Assembly: GCA_026399835.1 (NCBI GenBank)
Contig: JAPLQE010000059.1
Span: forward strand, 1-64,000
DNA from: Burkholderiales bacterium
GTDB lineage: Bacteria; Pseudomonadota; Gammaproteobacteria; Burkholderiales; Burkholderiaceae_E
Direction: 5' to 3'
Length of the DNA: 64,000 nt
Made by a program: the position numbers and the translations under genes. Below, piece by piece: positions 47,392 through 64,000 of the stretch; positions within the stretch are counted from its first letter, which is position 1, and every line of letters begins with the position of its first letter. The notes below the pieces were generated by a model. That model did not search any database and had not been told where the DNA came from. It worked only from the letters and a program-made list of their open reading frames with translations.

Positions 47392-47510
47392 GCGATATCG
47401 GAGCACGGTCCGGCATAGGCCTCGCGGGTTGCTGCCCGGGAAATTGCCTTGAGTGACCGATGAATTGGCCTGGCTCGGCCGCGGGCCAGATTGCACGCCC
47501 GGGACGTTTC

Positions 47511-47523
47511 GCATATTGTATGC
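47511..47523 (+). promoter_or_regulatory. Probable GntR/FCD operator
   Basis: GCATATTGTATGC is a perfect palindrome (GCATA-TTG-TATGC) in an otherwise GC-rich region, 14 bases before the aminotransferase ATG and 119 bases upstream of the GntR start. FCD regulators bind short AT-centred palindromes of this kind. Occupation would block translation start or promoter clearance of the aminotransferase operon. Confidence 0.6.
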
Positions 47524-47537
47524 AAAACGGAGGCGAC

Positions 47538-48761: not shown

Positions 48762-48858
48762 GCCACCCGAGCCGCGCGGCCGGGCGCACGCCCGTCCGCG
48801 CAACGCTTCACGACGGCGGCCGACGAGCCGCTGCGACCGATCACGAGGAGACGACCCG

Positions 48859-49848: not shown

Positions 49849-50621
49849 GCGAGCTCCTCGTCGAGCGCGACGGTGACATCGCCACCGTCGTGCTGAACCG
49901 TCCCGCGAAGCTCAACGCGATGACCCGGCCGATGTGGCGGATGCTCGGCGACGCGTTCGAGTCGCTGTCGGCCGACGACGCGGTGCGCTGCGTCGTCGTG
50001 CGCGGCGCGGGCGAGCGGGCGTTCTCGCCGGGCAACGACATCGCGGAGTTCGAGACCGAGCGCGCGACCAAGGCCCAGGCCACCGACTACGGCCGCGACA
50101 TGCACCGAGCCGCGGCGGCGATCGCCGGCTGCCGGCATCCGGTGGTGGCCCGCATCCACGGCATCTGCGTGGGCGGCGGGCTGGAGATCGCGGCGCTGGC
50201 GGACCTGAGGATCTGCGGCGCCTCCAGCCGATTCGGCGCGCCGATCAAGAACCTCGGCCTGGTGATGGCCTATGCCGAGATGGCGCCGCTCATCCGGCTG
50301 GTCGGCGAGGCGACGACGCTCGAGATCCTGCTCGAGGGGCGGATCTTCGATGCCGCCGAGGCGAAGGACAAGGGCCTGGTCACCCGCGTGGTGCCCGACG
50401 AGCGCGTCGGCGCCGAGGTCGACGAGACCGCGCGCCGCATCGCCGACGGCGCACCGCTCGTGGCGCGATGGCACAAGCGGTTCGCGCGCCGGCTGGGCGA
50501 GGCGAGCCCGCTGTCGGCGGCCGAACTCGACGAGTGCTTCGACTGCTTCGACACCGAGGACTTCCGGATCGGCTACGCGGCCTTCCTCGCCAAGCGCACG
50601 CCGCGCTTCGAGGGGCGCTGA
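49845..50621 (+). CDS. Enoyl-CoA hydratase/isomerase (crotonase) family protein
   Basis: A 258-residue crotonase-fold protein. The oxyanion-hole segments are RAFSPGNDIAEF and GICVGGGLEIAALADLRI. The usual catalytic glutamate positions fall in a non-standard stretch (IKNLGLVMAYAEMAPL), so the reaction may be hydration, isomerisation, hydrolysis or retro-Claisen cleavage of an acyl-CoA. It overlaps the Bug gene by four bases and the CoA-transferase by one, so the three act together. Confidence 0.85.
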   Translation: MSELLVERDGDIATVVLNRPAKLNAMTRPMWRMLGDAFESLSADDAVRCVVVRGAGERAFSPGNDIAEFETERATKAQATDYGRDMHRAAAAIAGCRHPVVARIHGICVGGGLEIAALADLRICGASSRFGAPIKNLGLVMAYAEMAPLIRLVGEATTLEILLEGRIFDAAEAKDKGLVTRVVPDERVGAEVDETARRIADGAPLVARWHKRFARRLGEASPLSAAELDECFDCFDTEDFRIGYAAFLAKRTPRFEGR

Positions 50622-51820
50622 TGGCCGGCCCGCTCGCAGGGGTGCGCGTGCTCGAATGCGCGCAGATCATGGCCGGACCGACCTGCGGCGCGCTGCTCGC
50701 CGACCTGGGCGCCGACGTGATCAAGGTCGAGAAGATCCCGGGGGGCGACGACGCACGCGCCTACCGCGAGCCGCGCATCGGCGGCGTCTCGGCCCCCTTC
50801 CTGGTGATGAACCGCAACAAACGGGGCATCGCGCTCGACTTCAAGCGGCCCGAAGGCCGCGAGGCGCTGCTGCGCCTGGCGGACTCGGCCGACGTGTTGG
50901 TCGAGAACTACCGCCCAGGCACCATGGACAAGCTCGGGCTCGGCTGGGAGGTGCTCCACGCGCGCCGGCCTTCGCTGATCTACTGCTCGATCAGCGGCTA
51001 CGGGCTGACCGGTCCCATGGGCGGCGGCGGTGGCTTCGACCTGGTCGCACAGGCCTTCGCCGGCCTGATGAGCATCACCGGCGAGCCCGGCCGCCCGCCG
51101 GCGAAGGCGGGCAGCTCGGTCGCCGACCTCAACGCCGGACTGCTCGCCACCAGCGGCATCCTCGCGGCCTACATCCACCGGCTCAGGACCGGCGAAGGCC
51201 AGCGGGTCGACACCTCGCTGATGGAGGCGGCGCTGCACCAGACCGGCTGGCACGCCTCGGTGTGGTTCGCCACCGGCACCTCGCCCGGTCCGCTCGGCTC
51301 GGGTCACGTGCTGACCGCGCCGTACCAGTCGTTCCGCACCCGGGACGGCTGGATCGTGATCGGCGGCGCGAACCAGGCGAACTGGGCGCGGATCTGCGAC
51401 GTGCTCGGCCACCCCGACTGGAAGCACGACCCGCGCTTCGCCGACGGCAGCGCACGGATGGCGAACCTGCCGGTGCTGGTCGAGGCGATGGAGACTGCGC
51501 TCGGCGCCCGCGATTCGGCGGACTGGCTGGCGGCCTTCGAGTCGGCGGGCGTGCCTGCCGGCCCCGTCCATTCGATCGGCGAGGCGCTCTCGCACCCGCA
51601 GACCCTCGCCCGCGGCATGGTGGTCGATCTCGAGCACCCGGTCGCCGGCCCGACGCGCGCGCTCGGGCCGCCGATCAAGCTGTCGGCGACGCCGACCCAT
51701 GTCGCCCGGCATGCGCCCTCGCTCGGCGAGCACACGCGCGAGGTGCTGCGCGAGCACGGCTGGACCGATGCCGAGATCGATGCGCTGCTCGCCTCGGGTG
51801 CCGCGATCCAGGCGTCCTGA
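50621..51820 (+). CDS. Class III CoA-transferase (CaiB/BaiF family)
   Basis: A 399-residue enzyme that moves CoA between carboxylic acids. It opens with MAGPLAGVRVLECAQIMAGP, and the catalytic aspartate is Asp169 in SSVADLNAG, the same number as in formyl-CoA transferase. NRNKRGIALDFKRPEGR and GHVLTAPYQSFRTRDGW are further family blocks. It would activate the imported acid for the crotonase. The ATG shares a base with the crotonase stop (TGATG). Confidence 0.92.
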   Translation: MAGPLAGVRVLECAQIMAGPTCGALLADLGADVIKVEKIPGGDDARAYREPRIGGVSAPFLVMNRNKRGIALDFKRPEGREALLRLADSADVLVENYRPGTMDKLGLGWEVLHARRPSLIYCSISGYGLTGPMGGGGGFDLVAQAFAGLMSITGEPGRPPAKAGSSVADLNAGLLATSGILAAYIHRLRTGEGQRVDTSLMEAALHQTGWHASVWFATGTSPGPLGSGHVLTAPYQSFRTRDGWIVIGGANQANWARICDVLGHPDWKHDPRFADGSARMANLPVLVEAMETALGARDSADWLAAFESAGVPAGPVHSIGEALSHPQTLARGMVVDLEHPVAGPTRALGPPIKLSATPTHVARHAPSLGEHTREVLREHGWTDAEIDALLASGAAIQAS

Positions 51821-51896
51821 GGTCCGTCACGCGGCACACCGGACGACTCCTTCGAGGCGGCGCGTCCGACTTAGGATCGGTCCGGGCGTCGAACGG

Positions 51897-52487
51897 GTGC
51901 TGCTCGGGCCGCGAGCCTCGCTCAAGCCGTTCGCCGAGACCGTGGTGCTCGGCGAAGCGCTGCACGACACGCTGCGCGCGCTGGCCTCGCTGGCCGGCAT
52001 CCTCCGCGCGCAGCTGACGGCCGACACGCAGGCGCCCTGGGCCGACCTCGACCGGATCGGGCGGGTCTGCAGCGCCGCCGATCGCGACGAGGCCTTCGTC
52101 GAGCTGGCCTGGCCTCTGCCAGGAGAGCGCCTCGGCGCCACTCGCCACGGTATCGACCTGTCCGACTCGGTCACGCCCGGCGGCGACCTGTCGGTACTGC
52201 ACCTCGGCGGCTTCGCCACCTACACCACGCTGTCGACCGCACTCGGCTTCGTCGCCGCCGCACTGCCCGCGCTCTCGGGCGATGCGCTGGCCTCGTCGCT
52301 GCTCGGGGCGATGCTCGGGCCGGCGGGTCGACCGGTGCTCGGCGACGCGTCCGCCGGGCGTGCGATCGGCCCGAACGCGCGCCGCATGCTGCGCCTCGTC
52401 GCCACCGTGGCGATGATCCGCCAGGGCGCAGCGGCCAGCGCCCCGCAGGGTGTCCCGCGGCGGACGCGGGAGCCGGCCCCCGCGTGA
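51897..52487 (+). CDS. Hypothetical protein, GTG start, low support
   Basis: A 196-residue frame between the CoA-transferase and the convergent hydrolase gene. No ATG is available; GTG 51897 is the only reasonable start and has no good ribosome site. The predicted protein has an acceptable composition with helical parts (LHDTLRALASLAGILRAQL) and a Gly/Ala-rich hydrophobic middle, but no family is recognised. It ends on the base before the hydrolase stop on the other strand. It could be a real short gene or a chance open frame in GC-rich DNA. Confidence 0.35.
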   Translation: MLLGPRASLKPFAETVVLGEALHDTLRALASLAGILRAQLTADTQAPWADLDRIGRVCSAADRDEAFVELAWPLPGERLGATRHGIDLSDSVTPGGDLSVLHLGGFATYTTLSTALGFVAAALPALSGDALASSLLGAMLGPAGRPVLGDASAGRAIGPNARRMLRLVATVAMIRQGAAASAPQGVPRRTREPAPA

Positions 52488-53174
52488 TCAGGCGCGCGTG
52501 AGATCCGCGAGCGACGCCGTCCAGCCGACGATCCCGCCCTGCGCGCGGATCATCGCGAGCGTGGCATCCCGGAACTCCGGGAAGTAGCTGCCGGTAGCCT
52601 CCTCGACCAGCAGGCACTCGTAGCCGCGGTCGTTGGCCTCGCGCATCGTGGTCTGCACGCAGACCTCGGTGGTGACCCCGCCGAAGATCAGGTGCGTGAT
52701 GCCCCGCGAGACGAGCACGTGCGTCAGATCCGTGTTGTAGAACGCGCCCTTGCCCGGCTTGACGATCTCGACCTCGCCCGGCAGCGGCTCCAGCCCGGGC
52801 ACGAAGTCAGCACCGGCCTCGCCGTCGATCAGGATGCGCCCCATCGGGCCGGGATCGCCGATCCGCGTGGACGGCGCGCCGCGCAGCCGCTTGGCCGGCG
52901 GACAGTCCGAGAGGTCGGGCCGGTGGCATTCGCGCGTGTGCACGAGCAGCAGGCCGCGCCTGCGCGCCCAGGCGATCAGGGCCTTCGCGGGCGCCACCAC
53001 CTGCGCGAGATGCCCGACGTCGTTGCCGAGCGACTCGCCGAAGCCGCCGGGCTCGATGAAGTCGCGCTGCATGTCGATCATCACCAGTGCGGTGGTGCAC
53101 GGATCGAACGAGAAGTCGGCGGGCAGCGCACGGACCGTGCGCGGTGCGCCGTCGGCAGGGGGCGGGGCGTTCAT
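52488..53174 (-). CDS. Isochorismatase-fold cysteine hydrolase, possibly triuret/ureide hydrolase (TrtA-like)
   Basis: A 228-residue alpha/beta hydrolase with the family triad Asp34 (VMIDMQRDF), Lys139 ([11 protein letters not shown]) and Cys172 (TTEVCVQTT). The conserved [17 protein letters not shown] and [16 protein letters not shown] blocks parallel those of the second hydrolase in the operon, so the two are paralogues with different specificity. Family members include BiuH, TrtA and RutB, which split amides of urea derivatives. Its partner is the BiuH-like enzyme, which makes TrtA an attractive guess. The ATG overlaps the ATPase stop by four bases. Confidence 0.8.
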
Positions 53175-54739
53175 GCGGCACCTTCGGCCAGGGCGGGCTC
53201 GGCACGGCCCGCGTTCGTGTCGGGGGTCTCGTGCGCGCCGCCCATGCGCCGGCCGATCTCGGCCCGATCGGCGGCGGCGCTCGAGGTCTGGTAGACGAGC
53301 GCACCTTCGGACATCACGACGACGCGGTCGGACAGCTCGATCAGCTCGTCGAGGTCCTCGCTCACCAGCAGCACCGCCGCGCCGCCATTGCGCGCCTCGA
53401 GCAGGCGGCGGTGGATCTCGTCGACCGCCGCGAAGTCCAGGCCGAACACCGGGTTCATCACGACCAGCACGCGACAGCCGCGCGAGAGTTCGCGCGCGAG
53501 CACGGCACGCTGCACGTTGCCGCCCGACAGCGTGCCGATCGGCGAGTCCGGCCCGCGGGTCTTGACGCCGAAGGCCTCGATGCGCGGCTGCGCGGCCGCC
53601 ACCAGACGGACCGGGCTCAGCCAGCCGGCGCGCGCCAGCGGCGCCACGTCGAACTCGCGCAGCGCCAGGTTCTCGGCCACCGACATCGCCGCCACGCAGG
53701 CGTTGCGCAGCGGCTCCTCGGGCAGGCTGCCCACGCCGTGCCGCGCGATCTCGGCACGCCGCCCGCGATAGCGCTCGCCGCCGATCCGGATGGCGCCCGA
53801 CGCGGCCTCGCGCTGCCCGAGCAGCGTCTCGACCAGCTCGCGCTGCCCGTTGCCCGAGACGCCGGCGATGCCCAGGATCTCGCCGGCGCGCACCGCGAGC
53901 GTCGCATCGCGTACCACCCGCCGGCCGGCGTCGTCGGTCACGGACAGCCCCTCGACCGCGAGCACGGGCGCTGCGCCCTGCCCGACCGGGCCGCGCTCGG
54001 GCAGTTCCCGGCGCCGCGCCGCCCCGATCATCGCGTCGGCCAGCCGCACCGCGTCGAAGTCGCCGACCGGGCCGGCCGCGACCCGCTTGCCACGCCGCAG
54101 CACGGTGACGTCGTCGGCGAACGCCGAGACCTCGCGGAACTTGTGGGTGATCATCACCACCGTCAGCCGGCCCGCGTGCGCGAGGCCGCGGATCGCGCCG
54201 AGCACCTCGTCGGCCTCGTCGGGCGCGAGCACCGAGGTCGGCTCGTCGAGGATCAGCAGCCGGTTGTCGGCGTAGAGCTGCTTGAGGATCTCGGCCTTCT
54301 GCTTCTGGCCGGCCGCCAGGTTCGAGACCGGCACCTCGAGCGGCAGCGTGAACGGCGTGCCGTCCATGAACGCGCGCATCTCGGCGATCCTGGCCGGCCA
54401 GTCGATCACCGCGCCGAGCCCGCCGCGCGCGAGCGCGAAGTTCTCGGCCACCGTCATCGAGGGCACCAGCGTGAAGTGCTGGTAGACCATGCCGACGCCG
54501 AGCGCGCGCGCGGCCTGCGGCGAGCCGATGTCGCGCTCGCGGCCGTCGAGCAGCACCGAGCCCGCGTCGGCCCGCTGGAAGCCGACCAGGCACTTGACCA
54601 GCGTCGACTTGCCGGCGCCGTTCTCGCCGAGCAGCGCGTGGACGGTGCCGGGACGCACGTCGAGGTCGACCGTATCGAGCGCGACGAAGTCGCCGAAGCG
54701 CTTGGTCAGTCCGATGGTCTGCAGCGACGGCGCCTTCAC
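53171..54739 (-). CDS. ABC transporter double ATP-binding protein, BMP/nucleoside type
   Basis: A 522-residue protein with two ATPase halves. The first has Walker [10 protein letters not shown] and [14 protein letters not shown]; the second has the degenerate [10 protein letters not shown] loop and [16 protein letters not shown], as usual for sugar and BMP-type nucleoside transporters. It energises the two permeases encoded upstream in the operon. The GTG start overlaps the BiuH-like stop by four bases, and its own stop overlaps the next hydrolase start, so the ATPase gene is embedded between two hydrolase genes. Confidence 0.9.
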
Positions 54740-55434
54740 GAGGCACCGCCTCCGAGCGCGTCGATCACCTGCGCGGATCGGCCGACCGCGCCGAACACGC
54801 CGCCCTGCATGGTCACCATCTTGATCGCGGCCCGATGGTTGCCGAGGTCGGTCGCACCGCAGCAGTCCTCGAGGATCAGGCACTCGAAGCCGCGGTCGTT
54901 GGCCTCGCGCATCGTCGTGTGCACGCACACGTCGGTGGTGATGCCGGTCAGCAGCAGGTTGCGGATGCCGCGCACGTGCAGCATCAGCTCGAGGTCGGTC
55001 GCGCAGAACGAGCCCTTGCCGGGCTTGTCGACGATCGGCTCGCCGGCGATGGGCGCGAGCTCGGGGATGATCTCCCAGCCGGGCTCGCCGCGCACGAGGA
55101 TGCGGCCGCAGGGCCCCGGGTCGCCGATGCCGGCACCGATGCGCCGCGAGCGCCAGCGCTTGTTCGCGGGCAGGTCGGCGAGGTCGGGCCGATGCCCCTC
55201 GCGGGTGTGGATCACGGTGAGGCCGCGGGCACGGGCTGCCGCCAGCAGGCGCGAGATCGGCTCGATCGGCGCGCGGGTCATCGACAGGTCGTAGCCCATG
55301 CGGTCGACGTAGCCGCCGATGCCGCAGAAGTCGGTCTGCATGTCGATGATCACCAGCGCCGTCTCGTTCGCTCGCCAGCGGCCGTCGTACGGCCAGGGGT
55401 ACGGGTCGGCGGCGATCTGGGGGAGGTCGATCAT
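54736..55434 (-). CDS. biuH: Biuret hydrolase-like cysteine hydrolase
   Basis: A 232-residue isochorismatase-fold enzyme. As remembered, the BiuH sequence of Rhizobium leguminosarum is very similar throughout, including [47 protein letters not shown] and [14 protein letters not shown]. The BiuH triad Asp36, Lys142 and Cys175 corresponds here to Asp31, Lys137 and Cys170 with a constant offset of five. BiuH hydrolyses biuret to allophanate and ammonia in the cytoplasm. No allophanate hydrolase gene lies in the window. It lies between the formamidase and ATPase genes. Confidence 0.85.
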
Positions 55435-55465
55435 CGCGGTCTCCAGGTCGGGCTCGATGGGCGGC

Positions 55466-56527
55466 TCAGGCGGCGCGCACGACGGGCGCAGCAACCGGCG
55501 CGGAGATCGGCACGCCGTCGGGGCCCGCCGGCTGCGGACCGTCGTACGCGCGCGTCGGCGCGGCGAAGCCGCAGGAGGCGCCGTCGACGTGGACGACCTG
55601 CGCCTCCCAGGGCAGCCGGTAGCGCCCGCCCACCATGTCGTGCATGAAGGTGTACGGGCAGTCCTGCGCGCCGCCCTTGACCGCCACGTAGCCGCGGTGC
55701 CAGAGCTGGTAGGGGTTGTTCTCCACGCCCCAGTGCTGGCGGGCCTCGCGGACCAGGTCGGGCCGCAGCTCGCAGGTGACGATCTCGTCGGGCCGGTTGC
55801 CGCCCTCGACCCGCACCGTGCCGTCGAAGTCGCAGACCATGCCCTCGCCCATCGAGTCGAAGGTGCCATCGCTGCCGCACAGGCAGACACTGGCGGTGAT
55901 CATCAGGTTCTGGAAGGCGTTCGCTTGATTGGTGATCTTCCAGGCGTGGCGGATCGGCGCGGTGTAGCCGGCGGTGCGCAGCATGATCTCCGCGCCCTTG
56001 TAGGCGCACTCGCGCGCCATCTCCGGGAACATGCCGTCGTGGCAGATGATCAGCGCGAGCCGGCAGCCCTTCGGGCCGTCGATGACCGGAATGCCGAGGT
56101 TGCCCGGCTCCCAGGCCTCGACCGGCACCCACGGGTGCAGCTTGCGGTAGTAGAGCGCGAGCCTGCCGGTGTCGTCGAAGATGATCCCGGTGTTGTACGG
56201 ATTGCCGCCGGGGTTGACCTCCATGATCGAGAAGCACCCCCAGATGCGGTGCTCGATGCAGGCCTGCCGGAAGGCGGCGACCTCGGGCCCGTCCATCGAC
56301 ACCATCAGCTCCGGCGCGGTGCTCATCGACAGCCCGTGCAGCGCGTACTCGGGAAACACCACCAGGTCCATGCCCGGGCTGTTGCGCCGCGCCTTGCCGA
56401 CCATCGCGACGATGCGTGCGGTCTGCGCGGCGAGCTGCGCCGGCGTCTCGACCACCGGCAGCTGCAGCTGCACCAGCCCCACGACCACGCCGTTCGGCGA
56501 CTTGTTCAATCCGCCCAGTCCGCTCAT
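55466..56527 (-). CDS. amiF: Formamidase (AmiF-type nitrilase-superfamily amidase)
   Basis: A 353-residue nitrilase-fold amidase. The catalytic triad is Glu60 ([10 protein letters not shown]), Lys129 (YYRKLHPW) and Cys162 ([10 protein letters not shown]). The [17 protein letters not shown] opening, [24 protein letters not shown] and [13 protein letters not shown] are closer to formamidase AmiF than to aliphatic amidase AmiE, as remembered. AmiF splits formamide to formate and ammonia; a different small amide is possible here. It lies between the permease genes and the BiuH-like gene in one operon. Confidence 0.88.
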
Positions 56528-56559
56528 CGAGACGCCTCGTTCATGTGATGCGCGCGTCG

Positions 56560-57480
56560 TCAGCGCGTCATGGAGAGTTCGCCCGGCGCGCCGATCGACG
56601 CGCGGGCCTTGGAGGTGCTGGCCAGCATGATCACCAGCGTCAGCACGTACGGCGCGGCGTTCCACAGGTGATAGCCGGCCTGGATGCCGACCGCCTGCAG
56701 CGCCGGGCCGATCGAGCCCGCGCCGCCGAAGATCAGGGCCGCGCGGAAGCAGCCGAGCGGCCGCCAGCGCGCGAAGATGACCAGTGCGACCGCCATCACG
56801 CCCTGCCCGCTCGACAGCGCCTCGTTCCAGCTGCCCGGGTAGTAGAGCGACAGGTAGGCACCGGCCACGCCGCCAAAGAAGCCTCCCATCGCGGTCGCCA
56901 TCACGCGGGTGCGTGCCACCGACAGGCCGAGCGCGCGCGCCGCGTCGGCCGAGTCGCCGACGGTGCGCAGCTGCAGCCCCCAGCGGGTGTTGGCGAACGC
57001 CCAGTGCAGCACGAACGCGAGCACCGCGCCGACGATGAACAGCACGTTGACCTGCAGCGCCGCGCGCAGCGCGGGCCGGTCGCTCCAGGCGCCGAGGTCG
57101 AGCGAGGGCAGGCGCGGCGCGGTCGGCTGGATGTAGCCCTTGCCGAAGAAGTACGCCAGACCCAGCCCCAGCACGATCAGCGAGATCCCGATCGCGGTGT
57201 CGTTGACCCGCGGCAGGCTGCACAGCAGGCCGTGGACCGCGCCGAACACCACGCCCGAGCAGCCGGCCGCGAGCACGCCGAGCCACGGCGAACCGCTGTG
57301 GTACGAGACCGCATAGCCGAACATCGCGCCGAACACCATCGTGCCCTCGAGCCCGAGGTTGATGCGCCCCGACTTCTCGGTGATGCACTCGCCGAGCGAC
57401 ACGAAGAGGAAGGGCGTGGACACCCGGATCGCGCCGCCCATGACGGCGATGAGCACGGTCAGCAGCGCGTCGAGGGTCAT
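56560..57480 (-). CDS. ABC transporter permease, BMP/nucleoside type
   Basis: A 306-residue membrane protein with about eight helices and the family block TEKSGRINLGLEGTMVFGA, followed by GGFFGGVAGAYLSL. It is the second permease of the system and pairs with the gene just upstream. Its start overlaps the previous stop by four bases. The formamidase gene follows after 32 bases. Confidence 0.9.
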   Translation of the reverse strand: MTLDALLTVLIAVMGGAIRVSTPFLFVSLGECITEKSGRINLGLEGTMVFGAMFGYAVSYHSGSPWLGVLAAGCSGVVFGAVHGLLCSLPRVNDTAIGISLIVLGLGLAYFFGKGYIQPTAPRLPSLDLGAWSDRPALRAALQVNVLFIVGAVLAFVLHWAFANTRWGLQLRTVGDSADAARALGLSVARTRVMATAMGGFFGGVAGAYLSLYYPGSWNEALSSGQGVMAVALVIFARWRPLGCFRAALIFGGAGSIGPALQAVGIQAGYHLWNAAPYVLTLVIMLASTSKARASIGAPGELSMTR

Positions 57481-58544
57481 CGCCGTTCCTTCGGCATGAA
57501 CGCCTCGCCGGCGAGGATGGCGACGAACAGCAGGCCCTGCAGCACCAGCGTGGTCGCGTCGGGCAGGTCGAGGCGGCGCTGCAGCAGGCTGCCGGCCGCG
57601 GCGATGCCGCCCATCAGGATCGCCACCGGCACGATCGCCAGCGGCTGCTGGCGGGCCATGAAGGCGACCAGGATGCCGGTGGTGCCGTAGCCGGCGAGCA
57701 CCGAGGCGTTGGCCGCGCTGTGCACCGCCATCACCTCGATCGCGCCGGCCAGGCCCGCGGCCGCGCCGCCGAGCGCGCAGGCCGCGACGATCAGCGCGCC
57801 CACCGGCAGGCCCACCAGCATCGCGGCGCGCGGGTTGCCGCCCGCCACCCGCAGCGCGAACCCCTGGGTGCTGCGGGACAGGGCGAGCTGCGCGATCGCG
57901 CAGGCGACGACGCCGATCGCCAGCCCCCAGTGGACGTCGAGCCAGGGGATCTGGCCGATCATCGCGCTGTCGGCCAGCGGCAGCGTCGACGGCTTGTTCA
58001 GGCTGGCCGGGTCACGCAGCGGACCCTCGACCATGTGGTTGAACACCGCGATCGCGATGTAGGAGAGCAGCAGGCTGCTGATCGTCTCGTTGAGCCCGCG
58101 ATAGGCGCGGAAGAAGCCCGCGAGCGCGAACCACGTGCCGCCCGCCGCGGCCCCCGCGATCGCGCCGGCGACCAGTGCCGCGGGCCCGAGCGAAGGCGCC
58201 AGAGGCACCGCCACCGCCGCCGCGGCCAGCGCACCGAGCGCCAGTGCGCCCTCCCCGCCGATCACCACCAGCCCGGCCTGCGCGGGGATCGCGACCGCGA
58301 GCCCCGTGAGGATCAGCGGCGCGGCCCGCAGCAGCGTGTTGTTCCACGAGAACCCGCTGGCGAAGCCGCCCTCGATGATGGTCGCGTACACCTCCAGCGG
58401 GTTGCGCCCGAGGAGCGACACGAACACCCCGAAGGCCAGCAGCCCGACGACGATCGAGCCGATCGGCACGAGCCACGCGCGCACCGCCGGCGAGACGTTC
58501 ACCGGGCGGAGCGCGGCGGCGAGGACCGACTGGACGGTGGACAT
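57477..58544 (-). CDS. ABC transporter permease, BMP/nucleoside type
   Basis: A 355-residue membrane protein with about ten helices and the branched-chain/BMP-permease features VVIGGEGALALGA, RGLNETISSLLLSYIA and GGNPRAAMLVGLPV. Together with the second permease it forms the membrane channel for the substrate delivered by the binding protein. It follows the binding-protein gene by 28 bases. Confidence 0.9.
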   Translation of the reverse strand: MSTVQSVLAAALRPVNVSPAVRAWLVPIGSIVVGLLAFGVFVSLLGRNPLEVYATIIEGGFASGFSWNNTLLRAAPLILTGLAVAIPAQAGLVVIGGEGALALGALAAAAVAVPLAPSLGPAALVAGAIAGAAAGGTWFALAGFFRAYRGLNETISSLLLSYIAIAVFNHMVEGPLRDPASLNKPSTLPLADSAMIGQIPWLDVHWGLAIGVVACAIAQLALSRSTQGFALRVAGGNPRAAMLVGLPVGALIVAACALGGAAAGLAGAIEVMAVHSAANASVLAGYGTTGILVAFMARQQPLAIVPVAILMGGIAAAGSLLQRRLDLPDATTLVLQGLLFVAILAGEAFMPKERR

Positions 58545-58572
58545 CGTCGGGGCTGCGGGCCGGGCGCTCCGA

Positions 58573-59685
58573 TCAGGCCGGGATCGAGCCGAGCACGCCC
58601 TCGACCAGGTAGTTCATCTTCTCGAGCTCGAGGTTGGTCATCTCGAGCGAGGTGCCCGCCGGGATCACCGTGCCGCCCTTGTTGTCCTTGAGCGGGCCCT
58701 TGAAGATCGCGAAGCTGCCGCTGGTCAGCGCGGTGCGGGCAGCGTCGCCGGCGGCCTTGGCCGCGGGCGTCACCGACGGACCGTAGGCCGACATCTTCAC
58801 GAAGCCTTCCTTCAGGCCGCCGCGCAGGAAGTTCAGGTGCGGCTTGCCGGTGCGGGCCGCGTCGACCAGCATGCCGTACGGCGTCGACCAGTCCCACTCG
58901 GCGCCGGTCAGGTAGCCCTTGGGCGCGAGCGCGGCCTGGCTGGCGTGGTAGCCGCAGGTCATGATGCCGCGCTTCTCGGCGGTCTCGATCATGACCTTCG
59001 GGCCGTCGACGTGGCAGGTGACCACGTCCACGCCCTGGTCCACCAGGCTGTTGGTCGCCTCGGCTTCCTTGACCGCCATCGACCAGTCGCCGGTGAAGAT
59101 CACGCGGGTGGTGATCGACGGGTCGACCGAGCGCGCGCCCATCGTGAACGCGTTGATGTTGCGCAGCACCTGCGGGATCGGCTTGGCGGCGACGAAGCCG
59201 AGCTTCTTCGACTTGCTCATGTGGCCGGCGACGACCCCCGCGACGTACTGCGCACCGTCGATGTAGCCGAAGTAGGAACCGGCGTTCTTCGGATGCTTGC
59301 CGTCGGTCCACATGCCGCCGCCGTGCGCGAAGCGCACTTTCGGGTACTTCTCGGCCATGCGCAGCATGTGCGGGTCGAAGTAGCCGAACGAGGTGGCGAA
59401 GATCAGCGACGCCTTGTCCTGCGTGATCATCGCTTCCATCGTCTTCTGGACGGCGATGGTCTCGGGCACCTTCTCCTCCTCGACCACCTTCACGCCGGGC
59501 AGCTTCTTCAGCGCCGCGGCGGCCTGCGCCTGCGCCTGGTTGTAGCCGAAGTCGTCGCGCGGACCGACGTAGATGACGCCGACGGTGATCGGCGACTGGG
59601 CCGAGGCGCGCAGCGGCAGGCCGGCGGCGGACACCAGGCCGGCGGCGCCGGCGGCTTGGAGCAGGGAGCGACGCGAGGTGATCAT
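58573..59685 (-). CDS. BMP family ABC transporter substrate-binding protein
   Basis: A 370-residue periplasmic protein with a twin-arginine-like signal (RRSLLQAAGAAGLVSAAG, cleavage near ASA-QS). The Bmp fold shows in ITVGVIYVGPRDDFGYNQAQ, FATSFGYFDPHMLRMAEKYP and GYIDGAQYVAGVVAGHMS. BMP proteins carry nucleosides and related nitrogen compounds; here the linked hydrolases suggest a ureide or amide ligand. It is the first gene of the operon, and the ATG at 59685 gives the best signal peptide; a longer in-frame start adds unconserved residues. Confidence 0.92.
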   Translation of the reverse strand: MITSRRSLLQAAGAAGLVSAAGLPLRASAQSPITVGVIYVGPRDDFGYNQAQAQAAAALKKLPGVKVVEEEKVPETIAVQKTMEAMITQDKASLIFATSFGYFDPHMLRMAEKYPKVRFAHGGGMWTDGKHPKNAGSYFGYIDGAQYVAGVVAGHMSKSKKLGFVAAKPIPQVLRNINAFTMGARSVDPSITTRVIFTGDWSMAVKEAEATNSLVDQGVDVVTCHVDGPKVMIETAEKRGIMTCGYHASQAALAPKGYLTGAEWDWSTPYGMLVDAARTGKPHLNFLRGGLKEGFVKMSAYGPSVTPAAKAAGDAARTALTSGSFAIFKGPLKDNKGGTVIPAGTSLEMTNLELEKMNYLVEGVLGSIPA

Positions 59686-59785: not shown

Positions 59786-59814
59786 AATACAAGATTGCCG
59801 GCGAAGCTTCGCAA
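59786..59814 (-). promoter_or_regulatory. Predicted promoter of the BMP-formamidase-hydrolase operon, with palindrome
   Basis: On the minus strand TTGCGA (59814-59809) and TGTATT (59791-59786) form a -35/-10 pair with a 17-base spacer, about 100 bases before the binding-protein ATG. The -35 region overlaps a perfect palindrome GCGAAGCTTCGC (59801-59812). The surrounding stretch is AT-richer than the rest of the window. The palindrome is a candidate site for the GntR regulator encoded next door. Confidence 0.45.
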
Positions 59815-59956
59815 GATGCGTGCCGGGGCTGCGGGGGGGTCTTCGCACGCCCGGCGGGCGGGCTCGGCGCCAACGCGGTGCGGGTCACCGGAACGGATCC
59901 CGCTCCCGGTCCGGCGCGCTGCACCGTTTGCGGGCGGCACCGGCGCGGCGCCCGGC

Positions 59957-60625
59957 TCAGTCGCCGGCGCGTTCGCGGGCTTCGTGCAGCATGTGCAGCG
60001 TGATCTTGCGGACCTCGGCCTTGCTGGCCTCGATGTGCGTGCGCAGCAGCATCACCGCCTGATCGGCGCGGCGCTGCACGATGGCGCGCAGGATCTTGCC
60101 GTGTTCCTGGTAGGTCGCATCGACGCGCGGCGCCTTGGTGAAGTCGAGCCGGCGGATGATGCGGATGCGCTCGGTGACCTCGGCATGCACGCGCGACATC
60201 TCGCGGTTGCCGGCGCTCGCCACCAGCGTCGCGTGGAAGGCCTCGTCGAGCGTCGCCACCACCCGCATCTCGGTCTCGCGCTCGTCGGCGGGGCCGGTCC
60301 AGGTGCGGCGAAGCGGCTCGAGCTCCGGCCTCGTCTCGGTCTCGCACAGCCGGCGCACCGCGGTGCTCTCGAGCACGATGCGCAGGTCGTAGAGCGCCTC
60401 GAACTGCACGAAGTCGAAGGGCTTGACCCGCCAGCCGGCGCGGAACATGACCTCGAGGTAGCCCTCGTGCTCGAGCCGGTAGAGCGCCTCGCGGACGGGC
60501 GTGCGCGAGGCCTGAGTGCGCTCGGAGATCTCGGTCTCGGTGAACCGGTCGCCCGGCAGCAGCCGGAAGTCGAAGATGTCCTGCTTGACCCGCTCGTAGA
60601 CCAGGGTCGCGAGGTTCACGGCCAT
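59957..60625 (-). CDS. GntR family regulator with FCD ligand domain
   Basis: A 222-residue FCD-type regulator. The winged helix has YERVKQDIFDFRLLPGDRF and ASRTPVREALYRLEHEGYL; the FCD domain follows from about residue 85 with DEAFHATLV and YQEHGKILRAI. ATG 60625 is chosen because AAGGAG lies 10-15 bases upstream; ATG 60661 is an alternative. It lies between the BMP operon and the dipeptide-type ABC genes on the same strand, so it could control either. Confidence 0.88.
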   Translation of the reverse strand: MAVNLATLVYERVKQDIFDFRLLPGDRFTETEISERTQASRTPVREALYRLEHEGYLEVMFRAGWRVKPFDFVQFEALYDLRIVLESTAVRRLCETETRPELEPLRRTWTGPADERETEMRVVATLDEAFHATLVASAGNREMSRVHAEVTERIRIIRRLDFTKAPRVDATYQEHGKILRAIVQRRADQAVMLLRTHIEASKAEVRKITLHMLHEARERAGD

Positions 60626-60665
60626 CGGGCGCTCGCTCCTTCTCGGCGCGGAGGATGCCATGCGG

Positions 60666-61688
60666 TCAGCCGGGCATCTTCAGGCAGGCGACGCGGTGCA
60701 GCGCCACCGAGCCGGGCACCTGGCGCAGCCGCGGCATGGCCTTCGCGCAGCCGGCGTCGCCGTCGGGGCAGCGGCCGTGGAAGCGGCAGGCCGCCGGGTC
60801 CGGATCGACCGGGCTGCGGACCTCGCCGGCGAGCGGCACCGGCGCGCGGCCGCTGCCCGGGATCGCCGACAGCAGCGCGCGCGTGTACGGATGACCGGGC
60901 GAGTCGAACACCTGCGCGGCCGGGCCCTCCTCGACCACGCGGCCGAGGTACATCACCACCACGCGGTCGCACAGCAGCCGCACGACGTTCAGGTCGTGCG
61001 ACACGAAGAGATAGGTCAGCCCGCGCTCGCGGCGCAGGCGCGCCAGCAGCTGCAGCACCACCGCCTGCACCGACACGTCGAGCGCCGCGGTCGGCTCGTC
61101 CAGGATCAGCAGCGAAGGCTCGGGCGCCAGCGCCCGCGCGATGCCGACCCTCGCCCGCTGGCCGCCCGACAGCTGGTGCGGCCAGCGGCCGAGGAGCTCG
61201 GCGGGCAGCCCGACCTCGTCGGCGATGCGGCGCACACGCTCGTCGACGTCGCCGGGAATCCCGAGCCGCAGCAGCGGCTCGGCGATCGCCTCGCGGGCCG
61301 TCTGCCGCGGGTCGAGGCTGTCGGTCGCATCCTGGAACACCAGCTGGATCTTCGCGCGCGTGCCCGAGGTCGCGAAGGCGCGCGCCGGCACTGCGCCGAT
61401 GTCGCGGCCCTCGAAGGTGATCGTGCCCTCGCTCGGATCGAGCAGGCGGGCCAGCAGGCGCGCCAGCGTCGACTTCCCGCAGCCGGACTCGCCGACCAGC
61501 CCGACCGACTCGCCGCGCCGCAGCGCGAGGTCGATCGCGTCGACGGCGTGCAGCACCGGCGCGCGCTTGCCGCTGCCGAGCGGGAAGCGCTTGGACAGGC
61601 CGGTGGCGGCGACCAGCGGTGCGTCATCGCCCGCGACGCCGGCGACGCCCTCGGACGCCGTCAGCCCGGCGGCAGCGGATTCGCGCAT
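60666..61688 (-). CDS. Dipeptide/oligopeptide ABC transporter ATP-binding protein (DppF-like)
   Basis: A 340-residue ATPase with Walker A GESGCGKST, signature LSGGQRARVGIARAL and Walker [13 protein letters not shown], plus the C-terminal oligopeptide-transporter extension HPYTRALLSAIP and CRFHGRCP. It is the second ATPase of a peptide-type importer. Its start overlaps the end of the preceding ATPase gene by 28 bases. The transported compound is unknown; such systems also carry nickel, opines and other small molecules. Confidence 0.9.
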   Translation of the reverse strand: MRESAAAGLTASEGVAGVAGDDAPLVAATGLSKRFPLGSGKRAPVLHAVDAIDLALRRGESVGLVGESGCGKSTLARLLARLLDPSEGTITFEGRDIGAVPARAFATSGTRAKIQLVFQDATDSLDPRQTAREAIAEPLLRLGIPGDVDERVRRIADEVGLPAELLGRWPHQLSGGQRARVGIARALAPEPSLLILDEPTAALDVSVQAVVLQLLARLRRERGLTYLFVSHDLNVVRLLCDRVVVMYLGRVVEEGPAAQVFDSPGHPYTRALLSAIPGSGRAPVPLAGEVRSPVDPDPAACRFHGRCPDGDAGCAKAMPRLRQVPGSVALHRVACLKMPG

Positions 61689-62644
61689 GCGAAGTCCTCG
61701 GTGGCATCCACGCGGACGTGGCGGATCGCGCTCGAGCAGGCCTCGAGCGCATTCGGGCAGCGCTCGATGTAGCGGCACGGCGGCAGGTCGGCGCGACGCA
61801 GGTCGGGCAGGCCGCCGGCGATCGGCTGCAGCTCGTCCAGCGACGCACGCCCGGCCGGCGTCGAGCCGATCAGCGCCCGGGTGTACGGATGGCGGGGCGA
61901 GGCGAAGAGCCGCGCGGTGGCGCCGGCCTCGACGACGTGGCCGGCGTGCATCACGACGATCCGGTCGCAGAAGTCGGCGGCGAGCGCGAGGTCGTGGGTG
62001 ATCAGCAGCGTCGCCACGCGGTCGGCGCGCGCCCGCTCGCGGATCAGCTCGAGCACCGCCGCCTGGGTCGTCACGTCCAGGCCGGTGGTCGGCTCGTCGG
62101 CGATCAGCAGGCGCGGCCGGCTCGACATCGCCAGCGCGATCATCACCCGCTGGCACATGCCGCCCGAGAGTTCGAACGGATAGGCGTGGAAGCGACGCTC
62201 CGGATCGGCGATCGCGACCTCGCGCAGGCAGGCGACGGCGCGCGCGCGCAGGTCGACCGAGCGGATCGCGTGATGGCGCGCGAGCACGTCCTCGAGCTGC
62301 TCGCCGATCTTGCGGATCGGATTGAGCGCCGCGCGCGGGTTCTGGAAGACCATGCCGATCTCGCGGCCCCGCAGGTCCTGCAGCTCGCGCTCGGTCGCCG
62401 CACGCAGGTCGATGCCGTCGAAGCGGATCCGGCCGGAAGTGATCCGCGCCGCGCGGTCCGACAGGCCGAGCAGCGCATGGCACAGCACCGACTTGCCCGA
62501 GCCCGACTCGCCCACCAGCCCGACGATCTCGCCACGGCCGATCGACAGGCTCACGTGGTCGAGCGCGCGCACCGTGCCCGAGCGCGTGCGGAACTCCAGC
62601 GACATGTCGTCGATGGACAGCAGCGGCGGCGCGTCCTGGCTCAT
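61661..62644 (-). CDS. Dipeptide/oligopeptide ABC transporter ATP-binding protein (DppD-like)
   Basis: A 327-residue ATPase with Walker A GESGSGKSV, signature LSGGMCQRVMIALAM and Walker B LLIADEPTTGLD, ending with the HPYTRALIGSTP and CRYIERCP oligopeptide-type extension. Its ATG overlaps the permease stop by four bases. It forms a heterodimer with the next ATPase. Confidence 0.9.
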   Translation of the reverse strand: MSQDAPPLLSIDDMSLEFRTRSGTVRALDHVSLSIGRGEIVGLVGESGSGKSVLCHALLGLSDRAARITSGRIRFDGIDLRAATERELQDLRGREIGMVFQNPRAALNPIRKIGEQLEDVLARHHAIRSVDLRARAVACLREVAIADPERRFHAYPFELSGGMCQRVMIALAMSSRPRLLIADEPTTGLDVTTQAAVLELIRERARADRVATLLITHDLALAADFCDRIVVMHAGHVVEAGATARLFASPRHPYTRALIGSTPAGRASLDELQPIAGGLPDLRRADLPPCRYIERCPNALEACSSAIRHVRVDATEDFACANPLPPG

Positions 62645-63540
62645 GTGCGCCGCCTCGGGTCGAGCAGGTCGCGCAGCGCGTCGCCGAGCAGGTTGAACGA
62701 GAACACCGCGAGCATCAGCACCGCGCCCGGGAAGAGCGCGACCCACCATTCGCCGGACATGATGTACTGCGCGCCCTCCGCGACCATGATCCCCCACTCC
62801 GGGGTCGGCGGCCGCACGCCCAGGCCGATGAAGGACAGCCCGGCCGCGTTGAGGATCGCCCAGCCCATGTTGAGCGACACCTGCACCGCGATCGGCGGCA
62901 GCAGGTTCGGGAAGACGTGGCGCATCAGCACGCCCCATTCCGAGTTGCCCGCCAGGCGCGCCGACTCGACGAAGCCCGCGCTGCGGCGCACGTTCGCCTC
63001 GGCCCGCGCGACGCGGATGTAGAACGGCAGGTTGATGATCGCGGTGGCGATCACGATGTTGGCCAGGGTGTTGCCGAGCGCCGCGACGATGCCCATCGCG
63101 AGCACGAAGAGCGGGAACGCCATGATCGTGTCGGCCGAGCGGGACACGATGCGGTCGAGCCAGCCGCCGAAGAAGCCCGCGGCCGCACCGAGCGTGGCGC
63201 CCACCACGAACGACAGGGCGACCGCCGCCACCGCCAGGCCCAGGTCGAGCCGGGTCGCGACGATGCAGCGCGACAGGATGTCGCGACCGAGTGCGTCGGT
63301 GCCGAACCAGTGGGAGGCCGACGGCGGCTGCAGCGCGATCGAGGGCGCGGTGGCCAGCGGGTCGTGCGGCGCCAGCCAGGGGCCGAACAGCGCGACCAGC
63401 ACCAGCGCGGCGAACAGGCCCGCAGCGAGCAGCGTGACCGGGTTCTCGGTCAGCACGTGCCGCAGGTGGCCGCCGCGCGGCGCAGCGGGCCGGGCCGCGT
63501 CAGGCGCGGCGCGGGCGGCGGAGGGGGGCAGCGCGCTCAT
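62641..63540 (-). CDS. Dipeptide/oligopeptide ABC transporter permease (DppC-like)
   Basis: A 299-residue inner-membrane permease with about six helices. The N-terminal cytoplasmic part precedes the conserved FGPWLAPHDPLAT and HWFGTDALGRDILSR, which are hallmarks of DppC/OppC. A later ESARLAGNSEWGVLMRHVFPN is the coupling-helix region that meets the ATPases. It follows the DppB-like gene by 7 bases. Confidence 0.92.
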   Translation of the reverse strand: MSALPPSAARAAPDAARPAAPRGGHLRHVLTENPVTLLAAGLFAALVLVALFGPWLAPHDPLATAPSIALQPPSASHWFGTDALGRDILSRCIVATRLDLGLAVAAVALSFVVGATLGAAAGFFGGWLDRIVSRSADTIMAFPLFVLAMGIVAALGNTLANIVIATAIINLPFYIRVARAEANVRRSAGFVESARLAGNSEWGVLMRHVFPNLLPPIAVQVSLNMGWAILNAAGLSFIGLGVRPPTPEWGIMVAEGAQYIMSGEWWVALFPGAVLMLAVFSFNLLGDALRDLLDPRRRT

Positions 63541-63547
63541 CGCCGGC

Positions 63548-64000
63548 TCAGGCCTGCATGGCGACCCGCGGGTCGATCAGCAGGTAGGCGAGATCGATCA
63601 GCAGGTTGAGCAGCACGTAGAGCACTCCCATCGTCAGCACGAAGCCCTGCACCGGCGCATAGTCCGAAGCGGTGAGCGACTCGATCGCGAACGAGCCGAT
63701 GCCCGGCCAGGCGAAGACCTTCTCGACCAGCACGTTCGAGCCGAGCAGGAAGGAGAACACCATGCCGAGCGTGGTGACCACCGGCAGCAGCGCGTTGCGC
63801 AGCGCATAGCGCACCAGCACGGTCGGCGAGCGCAGCCCGAGGGCGCGCGCGGTCCGCACGAAGTCCGAGCCGAGCACGCCCAGCATCGAGGCCCGCGTCA
63901 TCCGCGTGATCGGCGCGAGCACGAAGAGCGCCATGGTGATCGCCGGCATCACCAGCTGGCTGGCGCAGGCCCACCAGAGCTCCAGGTCGCGGTCGAGCAA
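63548..64000 (-). CDS. Dipeptide/oligopeptide ABC transporter permease (DppB-like, partial)
   Basis: The C-terminal ~150 residues of a DppB/OppB permease, cut by the right edge of the window. VLGSDFVRTARALGLRSPTVLVRYALRNALLPVV is spread over the coupling region, and FAWPGIGSFAIESL is the family signature. The N-terminal half, and presumably the solute-binding protein gene, lie beyond the window. Confidence 0.9.
   Translation of the reverse strand: MLDRDLELWWACASQLVMPAITMALFVLAPITRMTRASMLGVLGSDFVRTARALGLRSPTVLVRYALRNALLPVVTTLGMVFSFLLGSNVLVEKVFAWPGIGSFAIESLTASDYAPVQGFVLTMGVLYVLLNLLIDLAYLLIDPRVAMQA

Follow-up and report, generated by a model that had tools for sequence, protein, structure and literature searches.

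The window, a stretch of 64,000 nucleotides from a Burkholderiales bacterium (contig JAPLQE010000059.1), contains seven minus-strand genes at 52488..59685. All seven proved to be real and in the order that a first-pass annotation had given, and the expected Pfam family was found for each. The same-strand run extends past the window end, and it comprises a GntR regulator, the genes of a dpp-type importer, atzH-, atzE- and atzG-like genes, dppA and atzF. The features are as follows.

52488..53174, minus strand: trtA, putative triuret hydrolase (CH2, 228 aa), triad Asp34/Lys139/Cys172, best PDB match 6xix
53171..54739, minus strand: ABC ATPase of the BMP importer, 522 aa, GTG start, two ABC_tran stretches
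54736..55434, minus strand: biuH, putative biuret hydrolase (CH1, 232 aa), triad Asp31/Lys137/Cys170, NF050097, best PDB match 6azo
55466..56527, minus strand: AmiF-type formamidase, 353 aa, Glu60/Lys129/Cys162, NF009803, best PDB matches 5g3o and 2dyu
56560..57480, minus strand: BMP-type importer permease 2, BPD_transp_2
57477..58544, minus strand: BMP-type importer permease 1, BPD_transp_2
58573..59685, minus strand: BMP-family solute-binding protein, Bmp 122 bits, best PDB match AtzT 6pi5
59811..59824, minus strand: sigma54-type -24/-12 element GGCACGCATCTTGC before bmp, a pattern match
59867..59881, minus strand: NtrC-like 15-mer upstream of the sigma54 element, one mismatch to the consensus that we assume
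59957..60661, minus strand: GntR/FCD regulator, GntR and FCD domains
60666..61688, minus strand: DppF/OppF-type ATPase of the second importer, by family search on a shorter stretch (to 61628); ATG at 61688
61661..62644, minus strand: DppD/OppD-type ATPase, by family search
62641..63540, minus strand: DppC-type permease, by family search
63548..64000, minus strand: DppB-type permease, truncated at the window end (complete gene at contig 63548-64561)
beyond the window, up to contig position ~70054, minus strand: atzH, atzE, atzG, dppA and atzF, in this order after the DppB-type gene

From bmp to trtA (gene order bmp, permease, permease, formamidase, biuH, ATPase, trtA) the gaps are +28, -4, +32, +31, -4 and -4 nt. 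The several 4-base overlaps reported at first thus amount to three, and two of them flank the ATPase gene, one at each neighbour. Among 35 loci with a BiuH gene over its cut-off, taken from 399 genomes of the order (ours counted), the ATPase gene comes next after BiuH in 30 and TrtA next after the ATPase gene in 25, which excludes chance as the source of this order. The overlaps are not general among relatives: a compatible one is found at 16 of 38 BiuH-ATPase junctions and at 14 of 27 ATPase-TrtA junctions. That the ATPase gene sits between the two hydrolase genes by overlapping stops and starts is therefore correct, but it does not establish the translational coupling claimed from it, being a matter of geometry that varies between relatives.

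The two cysteine hydrolases were compared with BiuH, TrtA and RutB and placed in a tree, where they group with the first two and not with unrelated isochorismatase-fold enzymes. CH1 scores 419.9 bits against NF050097, the NCBIfam equivalog for BiuH (cut-off 370), agrees with 6azo at 14/14 checked positions including the D, K, C triad, and carries the BiuH-type residues Y, Y, S, D, T and V at TrtA positions 35, 41, 134, 160, 187 and 205. Its likeness to BiuH and its triad, both proposed in the first-pass annotation, hold on the protein sequence, and CH1 is a predicted biuret hydrolase. For CH2, which had been described as a paralogous hydrolase of biuret/triuret type, the nearest solved structure in a PDB search is 6xix (287 bits), and again 14/14 checked positions agree, among them F35, N41, A134, E160, Y187, Q202, I205 and the triad. 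It falls within the TrtA clade, apart from BiuH, with support 100/98 in a tree whose bootstrap is not fully settled. By tree and residues CH1 goes with 6AZO/6XJM and CH2 with 6XIX, and CH2 is accordingly a predicted triuret hydrolase. RutB was rejected for both proteins (116.6 bits for CH1 and 93.4 for CH2, with a RutB cut-off of 377.95), as was a YcaC-type hydrolase, for which both lie far below the cut-off. On one E. coli plasmid we observed a TrtA-like gene with neither BiuH nor a BMP importer within the stretch examined.

The allophanate hydrolase that the first pass had suggested looking for elsewhere in the genome belongs to the same gene run, whose continuation the first pass had missed: atzF lies 4.2 kb beyond the window end, and its product scores 749 bits against TIGR02713 (cut-off 511). 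The AtzE-family and HpxZ/AtzH-type proteins are over their own NCBIfam cut-offs and the AtzG-like protein over its Pfam cut-off. The AtzH-like protein has the curated NCBIfam name HpxZ and the Pfam name AtzH-like. We read the cluster, with a probability of about 0.85, as a nitrogen-scavenging catabolic set for triuret and biuret. Gene content, families, diagnostic residues, clades, gene order and promoter-like elements come directly from the analysis. Substrates, flux, regulation and ligand we infer as follows. The BMP importer would take up a planar ureide, and TrtA would remove a terminal amide from triuret to give carboxybiuret, which would lose CO2, either spontaneously or through the AtzH/TrtB-type protein, to yield biuret. 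BiuH would then convert biuret to allophanate and AtzF allophanate to ammonia and CO2, with the AtzEG-like pair as a possible parallel route from carboxybiuret. Together the genes could convert triuret to ammonia, uptake included, and their content supports the earlier suggestion of a set suited to stepwise deamidation of a urea oligomer. The biochemistry of characterised TrtA and BiuH, in the available text of PMC7948467, supports this pathway. Against it count the TrtA-like gene on the E. coli plasmid, the guanine ligand of the nearest solved relative of the BMP protein, and a possible role of the AtzE- and AtzH-like proteins with oxalurate instead.

The core of this set is already in print, and the novelty first attached to the BMP importer with its hydrolases was overstated, because PMC12625717 annotates genes of a BMP transporter next to biuH, trtA and atzF. 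Its biuH clusters in AOB and comammox, as far as the available text goes, have the same core, importer type and proposed pathway (trtA, atzF, bmpA-nupABC and gntR, with trtB in AOB); the comammox clusters have allFGHK, which we did not see in our run, and the word formamidase is absent from that text. Related layouts appear in two other papers. The TrtA-BiuH-AtzF operons of Herbaspirillum and Rhizobium (PMC7948467) have the same three hydrolases, diagnostic residues and clustered genes, but neither an importer nor a formamidase next to them is mentioned in the available text (“transport” occurs in two places, both on plants), whereas our run has both, plus a dpp-type importer and genes like atzGEH. 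In the beta-proteobacterial clusters of PMC6219798, atzF lies upstream of atzGEH on one strand with ABC transporter and amidase genes downstream, as in our run, but in the portion of that paper available the enzymes encoded downstream are not identified as BiuH, TrtA or formamidase.

The claim of a complete BMP-family ABC importer is borne out by the Pfam families: a Bmp protein, two BPD_transp_2 permeases and an ATPase with two ABC_tran stretches. The N-terminus of the BMP protein contains SRRSLL, which we take to be twin-arginine-like. The pocket residues are Y, S, F, Q, N, W, H and D at AtzT positions 45, 97, 98, 165, 169, 194, 218 and 220. AtzT, from the atzRSTUVW importer operon of Pseudomonas ADP, a sigma54-dependent nitrogen operon, is the nearest solved BMP-type binding protein and is described as binding guanine, with Glu165 (PMC6834077, available text). 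Its guanine-site residues Glu165, Asn218 and Asn220 are Gln, His and Asp here, which is not the purine-binding AtzT type. Gln at position 165 is found in 39 of 40 BMP proteins beside BiuH, as against Glu in 39 of 43 others (from all 49 matches; a narrower sample had Glu in 23 of 24), and the triple Gln165-His218-Asp220 is found in 39/40 and 0/43, respectively. We have not found this pocket change in BiuH-block BMP proteins in print. Glu165 is also absent in some cases without BiuH: of three near relatives at 50-59% identity, none with BiuH adjoining, L147 has Gln, L148 Ile and L150 Leu. The pocket change does not by itself establish the ureide ligand that we predict.

The same three relatives, together with the guanine-binding AtzT and the presence of atzD inside the block in R. 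leguminosarum pRL23b6, would also fit an importer for purines or s-triazines, with the hydrolases acting downstream on cyanuric acid or purine-derived ureides. We hold this to be improbable, in view of the near-complete split in pocket residues between BMP proteins beside BiuH and the others. An AtzD model finds no match in the bacterium's own genome, and none in any control genome. The subunits score 54, 147, 170 and 425 bits against NF047927-NF047930, the models of a putative B6 BMP importer (cut-offs 400, 465, 400 and 670). All are below the cut-offs, which does not place the importer in this family, yet the B6 models remain the best NCBIfam matches of the subunits (NF047930 is the nearest for the ATPase), and this counts against the ureide reading. 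Ureides might instead enter by the dpp-type importer, to which we assign no ligand. In the papers that we examined we found no test of which importer takes up biuret or triuret, and the conserved BMP pocket offers a direct route to a binding test.

Nitrogen limitation would switch the cluster on through a sigma54/NtrC-type promoter and the GntR regulator. A sigma54-type element precedes bmp in 19 of 39 loci, our own included (shuffles: mean 0.09, maximum 2), and another precedes atzF; one other minus-strand match occurs in the window, at 32664. We have not found the elements before bmp and atzF in print. The NtrC-like 15-mer, judged by a consensus that we take to be the right one, occurs with at most one mismatch in 14 of 39 loci (shuffles: mean 2.45, maximum 5). 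The best NCBIfam match of the GntR regulator is TIGR03338, below its cut-off, and a GntR at least 50% identical is found in 15 of the 35 fetched BiuH stretches, our own included. A GntR operator before bmp was considered and is not claimed: one motif matches 6 of 39 loci, where shuffles average 1.5 and reach at most 5, and the other matches 0/39. In four of those six loci the motifs are near-perfect palindromes of the type CTTGTACACAAG, with none in the window.

With the core gene set known, what stands unexplained is the formamidase that repeatedly adjoins the biuret enzyme. Its designation as AmiF-type was well founded: the protein scores 555.5 bits against NF009803 (cut-off 406), and 9/9 checked active-site-region positions, including the C-E-K site, are as in AmiF, so that it is a predicted formamidase. 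The nitrilase-superfamily AmiF enzymes of H. pylori and B. cereus (review PMC10781810) share these nine positions, which are kept in 28/28 formamidase sequences compared. Here the gene lies in a ureide cluster; biuret and isochorismatase are absent from the main text of that review as available. Beside Glu60 and Tyr192 the protein differs from both characterised AmiF chains (for example T63L, Q64H, S193T, T194A, Q195P). These consistent replacements could mean that the homologue now acts on a different small amide of the pathway and that formamide is no longer its main substrate, which we think unlikely with the nine positions unchanged and a score well over the curated cut-off.

BiuH is present in every formamidase-bearing genome of two samples, 17/17 among 399 genomes of the order, with the formamidase inside the block in 16 of the 17, and 15/15 among 398 genomes of the phylum (Fisher p ~1e-20 in each, with relatedness ignored). 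We have not found this tie in print. In a scan by name, the fetched stretch contains no BiuH at 6 of 80 formamidase loci; three of these six are cyanobacterial records. From a set of 494 records we left out 356 Klebsiella plasmid records, because 369 of the 494 were below 60% identity and acetamidase operons are described on such plasmids (PMC13209695, available text). At E ≤ 1e-130 there are nine Klebsiella formamidase records, as many as for BiuH, an equality in number that does not imply identity of the records to each other. Among 20 neighbour proteins at eight loci (L106, L109, L116, L158, L181, L221, L224, L231) we found no partner common to all orphan or off-block formamidases. A role as stand-in for a missing allophanate hydrolase was rejected, because atzF belongs to the same run; the fetched stretch includes atzF at 7/16 formamidase-bearing loci and at 6/19 others. 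In some lineages the formamidase truly belongs to the set, and we assign it no catalytic step.

It may be a separate nitrogen-scavenging gene that is controlled together with the ureide genes, through a common promoter and regulator, but has no chemistry in common with them, a possibility to which we give somewhat less than even odds. A different setting, with alpha/beta hydrolase, amidase and formamidase genes together, is seen at L181 and L234, and more than half of the BiuH loci of the order have no formamidase in the block (16/35 have it), but a generic scavenger should also occur without BiuH, which it never does in the two genome samples. Rather less likely is a branch for formyl-capped ureides, in which BiuH or TrtA would cut off the terminal amide of formylurea, the formylcarbamate would lose CO2 to give formamide, and the formamidase would release formate and ammonia. 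The strict co-occurrence and the conserved AmiF positions speak for such a branch, and formylurea is the best side substrate of TrtA (PMC7948467 Table 2), but at 0.3% of the triuret rate, which is weak. Formylurea is absent from the available text of the BiuH paper, and we found it together with biuret only in PMC7948467. The residues flanking the formamidase site, unlike those of characterised AmiF, and the six loci without BiuH also weigh against it. More speculatively still, formyl-capped and carbamoyl-capped urea chains may both be processed, each TrtA/BiuH cut and decarboxylation removing one carbamoyl until the chain ends at AtzF or, via formamide, at the formamidase, with the rebuilt BMP pocket (Gln165, His218, Asp220) recognising ureides. 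If true, formylurea would have a catabolic pathway of its own, encoded by a defined set of genes and served by a BMP transporter specific for ureides. The formamidase link offers a testable reason for a formamide enzyme to accompany ureide hydrolases, and it might mark out formylurea as a nitrogen source in nature.

Fertiliser contains triuret and biuret, as does oxidised uric acid. Both ureides enter soil with urea fertiliser (PMC7948467, available text). In a K. pneumoniae isolate of human origin, a conjugative plasmid carries a block with, by annotation, the same gene order, and the trait can therefore move between hosts.

The seven genes of the block lie on the minus strand at the positions that the first-pass annotation gave them, three times with 4-nt overlaps, and the same-strand run extends upstream of the block, beyond the window end. 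The source genome comprises 4.95 Mb in 93 contigs, and the window is C30:1-64000, C30 being the contig that it begins. A few of the family searches were run with stretches 1-3 codons longer or shorter than the genes, and 20 codons shorter for dppF.

Genes of the minus-strand run (window coordinates, or those of C30 where marked)
52488-53174, minus: CH2, cysteine hydrolase (Pfam isochorismatase domain)
53171-54739, minus: ATPase, GTG start (Pfam ABC_tran, two stretches)
54736-55434, minus: CH1, cysteine hydrolase (Pfam isochorismatase domain)
55466-56527, minus: formamidase (Pfam CN_hydrolase)
56560-57480, minus: permease 2 (Pfam BPD_transp_2)
57477-58544, minus: permease 1 (Pfam BPD_transp_2)
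58573-59685, minus: bmp, importer solute-binding protein (Pfam Bmp)
59957-60661, minus: GntR/FCD regulator, upstream of bmp
upstream of the GntR/FCD gene, minus: dppF, dppD, dppC and dppB, in that order
63548-64561, minus: dppB, spanning the window end
C30:64558-64959, minus: AtzH/HpxZ homologue (190 bits, cut-off 135; Pfam AtzH-like)
C30:64986-66380, minus: AtzE-family amidase (642 bits, cut-off 461)
C30:66377-66559, minus: AtzG-like protein, 60 aa (Pfam AtzG-like, 35.5 bits, cut-off 24)
C30:66575-68179, minus: family-5 solute-binding protein
C30:68192 to about 70054, minus: allophanate hydrolase AtzF (749 bits, cut-off 511)

An allophanate hydrolase, which the first-pass annotation proposed to seek elsewhere in the genome, is thus present in the same run, 4.2 kb beyond the point where the window ends. 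Given the curated name HpxZ of the AtzH homologue, the AtzGEH-like trio might serve oxalurate. A search for AtzD finds no match in this genome or in any of 14 control genomes, so an atzD gene may nonetheless be present. A urease alpha subunit is encoded elsewhere in the source genome. Convergent with trtA is a 262-aa open frame (window 51699-52487, plus) that has no match in a Pfam search and, with these boundaries, is possibly no real gene. The plus-strand stretch 47460-51820 holds a class-V aminotransferase and a TctC-type receptor, then two frames that, from their translations by eye, look enoyl-CoA hydratase-like and CoA-transferase-like.

The two hydrolases, when compared with BiuH, TrtA and RutB as the first-pass annotation had suggested, group apart, one with BiuH and the other with TrtA. 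The BiuH equivalog model, whose cut-off is 370 bits, gives 419.9 bits for CH1 and, below the cut-off, 247.1 for CH2; both are far below the RutB cut-off (116.6 and 93.4 bits against 377.95). The nearest solved chains are 6azo for CH1 and 6xix for CH2, respectively the BiuH of R. leguminosarum and the TrtA of Herbaspirillum (PMC7948467, which also tabulates residues telling the two apart). CH1 matches 6azo, and CH2 6xix, at 14/14 checked positions, and the reference's 14-position string recurs in 42 of 46 BiuH-labelled and 29 of 30 TrtA-labelled relatives. In a tree of 81 rows, without RutB and with a bootstrap short of fully settled, CH1 groups with 6azo and 6xjm (support 100/95) and CH2 with 6xix (100/98). 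These comparisons identify CH1 as a predicted BiuH and CH2 as a predicted TrtA.

BiuH scores over the cut-off in 35 of 399 genomes of the order, this one included. In the stretches around all 35 genes (L075 and L076 left out; at least three end at contig ends), BMP is followed by a permease in 29, permease by permease in 30, BiuH by the ATPase in 30 and the ATPase by TrtA in 25. A compatible 4-nt overlap occurs at 16/38 BiuH-ATPase and 14/27 ATPase-TrtA junctions, loci outside the order included. The placement of the ATPase gene between the hydrolase genes is therefore kept and the exact overlap is not.

The formamidase co-occurs closely with BiuH. An AmiF-type model (E <= 1e-100, all over the cut-off) finds it in 17 of the 399 genomes, all within the 35 with BiuH. 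It is inside the block in 16, between permease and BiuH in 15 and in the TrtA slot in one; in the exception, G286, it is on a different contig. In a phylum-wide sample of 398 genomes, which shares four formamidase-bearing genomes with the first, all 15 genomes with formamidase are among the 26 with BiuH, and the genes lie within 10 kb of each other in 14 (the exception is G491). Fisher tests of co-occurrence give about 1e-20 in each sample, with relatedness ignored. A named scan is biased towards the block, having been seeded with 21 formamidases that mostly belong to it and limited to the best 80 of 570 confirmed stretches; its closest loci are Burkholderiales records, and BiuH (at least 60% identity) is in the fetched stretch at 74 of the 80. 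The other six are three cyanobacterial records, a deltaproteobacterial MAG, a Rhizobacter MAG and a contig that stops just past the formamidase. Nine positions, chosen in part from a review, which we take to be in or adjacent to the AmiF active site, are identical in 28/28 formamidases (29 rows, two of them for the window's); positions flanking Glu60 and Tyr192 differ consistently from two characterised AmiF chains. Away from the block, no partner common to all formamidases appears among 20 neighbour proteins. Two such loci, L234 (NZ_CP022994.1, 6502-12990) and L181 (3011-6562), share a second context, with an alpha/beta hydrolase and an amidase preceding the formamidase, and L234 also has a cytosine permease and a porin.

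TrtA and BiuH would each remove the terminal amide of a urea chain and the carboxylated product would then shed CO2, so that each round would leave the chain shorter by one carbamoyl. With a formyl cap, the last product would be formamide, and we tentatively infer that the formamidase could handle it. Formylurea, the best side substrate of TrtA at 0.3% of triuret (PMC7948467, Table 2), is a weak point in favour of this. It is somewhat more likely that the formamidase is a separate nitrogen-scavenging activity under shared control.

The nearest solved relative of the BMP protein is AtzT, in which guanine contacts Ser97, Phe98, Glu165, Asn218 and Asn220 and lies between Tyr45 and Trp194 (PMC6834077). 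The window protein reads Y, S, F, Q, N, W, H and D at AtzT positions 45, 97, 98, 165, 169, 194, 218 and 220, with Gln165, His218 and Asp220 where AtzT has Glu165, Asn218 and Asn220. This triple is found in 39 of 40 BMP proteins in BiuH blocks (the exception, L114, has Thr165) and in 0 of 43 outside. Glu165 is found in 39 of these 43: 4/5 in fetched stretches, 19/19 and 16/17 among the distant matches of a 120-genome search, whose neighbours were inspected in a minority of cases, and 0/2 among its closer matches. Nine other block BMPs of that search were already among the 40; L127/L149 (Gln165, Gln218; beside a BiuH paralogue) and L122 (triple present; 3-kb contig) are left out of the counts. 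A planar-ligand sandwich minus the purine-reading carboxylate would fit a ureide as a putative ligand. Outside the block, Glu165 is replaced in L107/L150 (Leu), L147 (Gln), L148 (Ile) and L248 (Pro), and all but the last share 50-59% identity with the window protein and lack a directly adjacent BiuH. Because such near relatives have also lost Glu165, its loss may mark a BMP clade rather than linkage to BiuH as such. The Leu165 protein of L107/L150, which also has Trp45, adjoins a lone TrtA relative (L150 10186-12434 in genome G668; same genes in L107); this pair stands apart from the same genome's BiuH block, and its BMP is possibly part of a second importer with another ligand. Genome G097 has BMPs at L147 (6647 onward, 59% identical) and L148 (6178 onward, 55%), with Q/D/Q and I/H/D at 165/218/220 and, over the 15 and 12 kb retrieved, no match to a BiuH block gene.

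At 19 of 39 loci the 300 bp that precede the aligned bmp start contain GGCAY-N5-TTGC (mean 0.09 and maximum 2 in shuffles); the other six genes of the block have 0 to 5 matches ahead of them. C30:52001-84000 has two, upstream of bmp (59824-59811) and of atzF (70094-70081), and the remainder of the window one further minus-strand match, at 32664. The elements upstream of bmp and atzF are putative sigma54-type elements, resembling in this the atz operons of Pseudomonas ADP, which are sigma54-dependent (PMC6834077). An NtrC-like 15-mer with at most one mismatch occurs at 14/39 loci (shuffles: mean 2.45, maximum 5), and exactly at 2/39.

The core of the cluster is already known, since such clusters are described in two papers: ammonia oxidisers have co-located atzF, biuH, trtA and bmpA-nupABC, with trtB as well in AOB, and the same pathway is proposed there (PMC12625717), and in beta-proteobacteria an allophanate hydrolase gene clusters with atzGEH and with genes for ABC transporters and amidases (PMC6219798). 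In the literature covered, which included few subscription papers, we met neither the formamidase association (a formamidase-biuret gene link, judged largely by term counts) nor the BMP pocket change nor the sigma54-type elements, and PMC7948467 is the sole match for formylurea together with biuret.

The block, or single genes like those in it, also occurs on plasmids. By annotation, the conjugative IncFII plasmid p19-10_02 of K. pneumoniae (L232, NZ_CP023489.1, 9034-18657) carries atzF, a BMP protein, two permeases, formamidase, an isochorismatase-family hydrolase, the ATPase, another such hydrolase and GntR, all of it lying between an IS1 and an IS1/IS26 flank. Formamidase (E <= 1e-130) and BiuH (E <= 1e-70) each match plasmid records of Klebsiella (9), Enterobacter (7) and Citrobacter (3); the gene order given above was read from one such plasmid. 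TrtA-like matches are found in 77 Escherichia plasmid records, with the neighbourhood taken from one, E. coli pSCZP1 (L235, NZ_CP051220.1, 5983-12612): there the hydrolase (62% identical) neighbours DUF2877, fdrA and DUF1116 genes, a carbamate kinase and a cytosine permease, and the stretch has no BiuH. In R. leguminosarum pRL23b6 (L233, NZ_CP050088.1, 9774-19351) an atzD gene inside the block separates the hydrolase that follows the formamidase from the ATPase gene, with a cupin gene placed after the second hydrolase.
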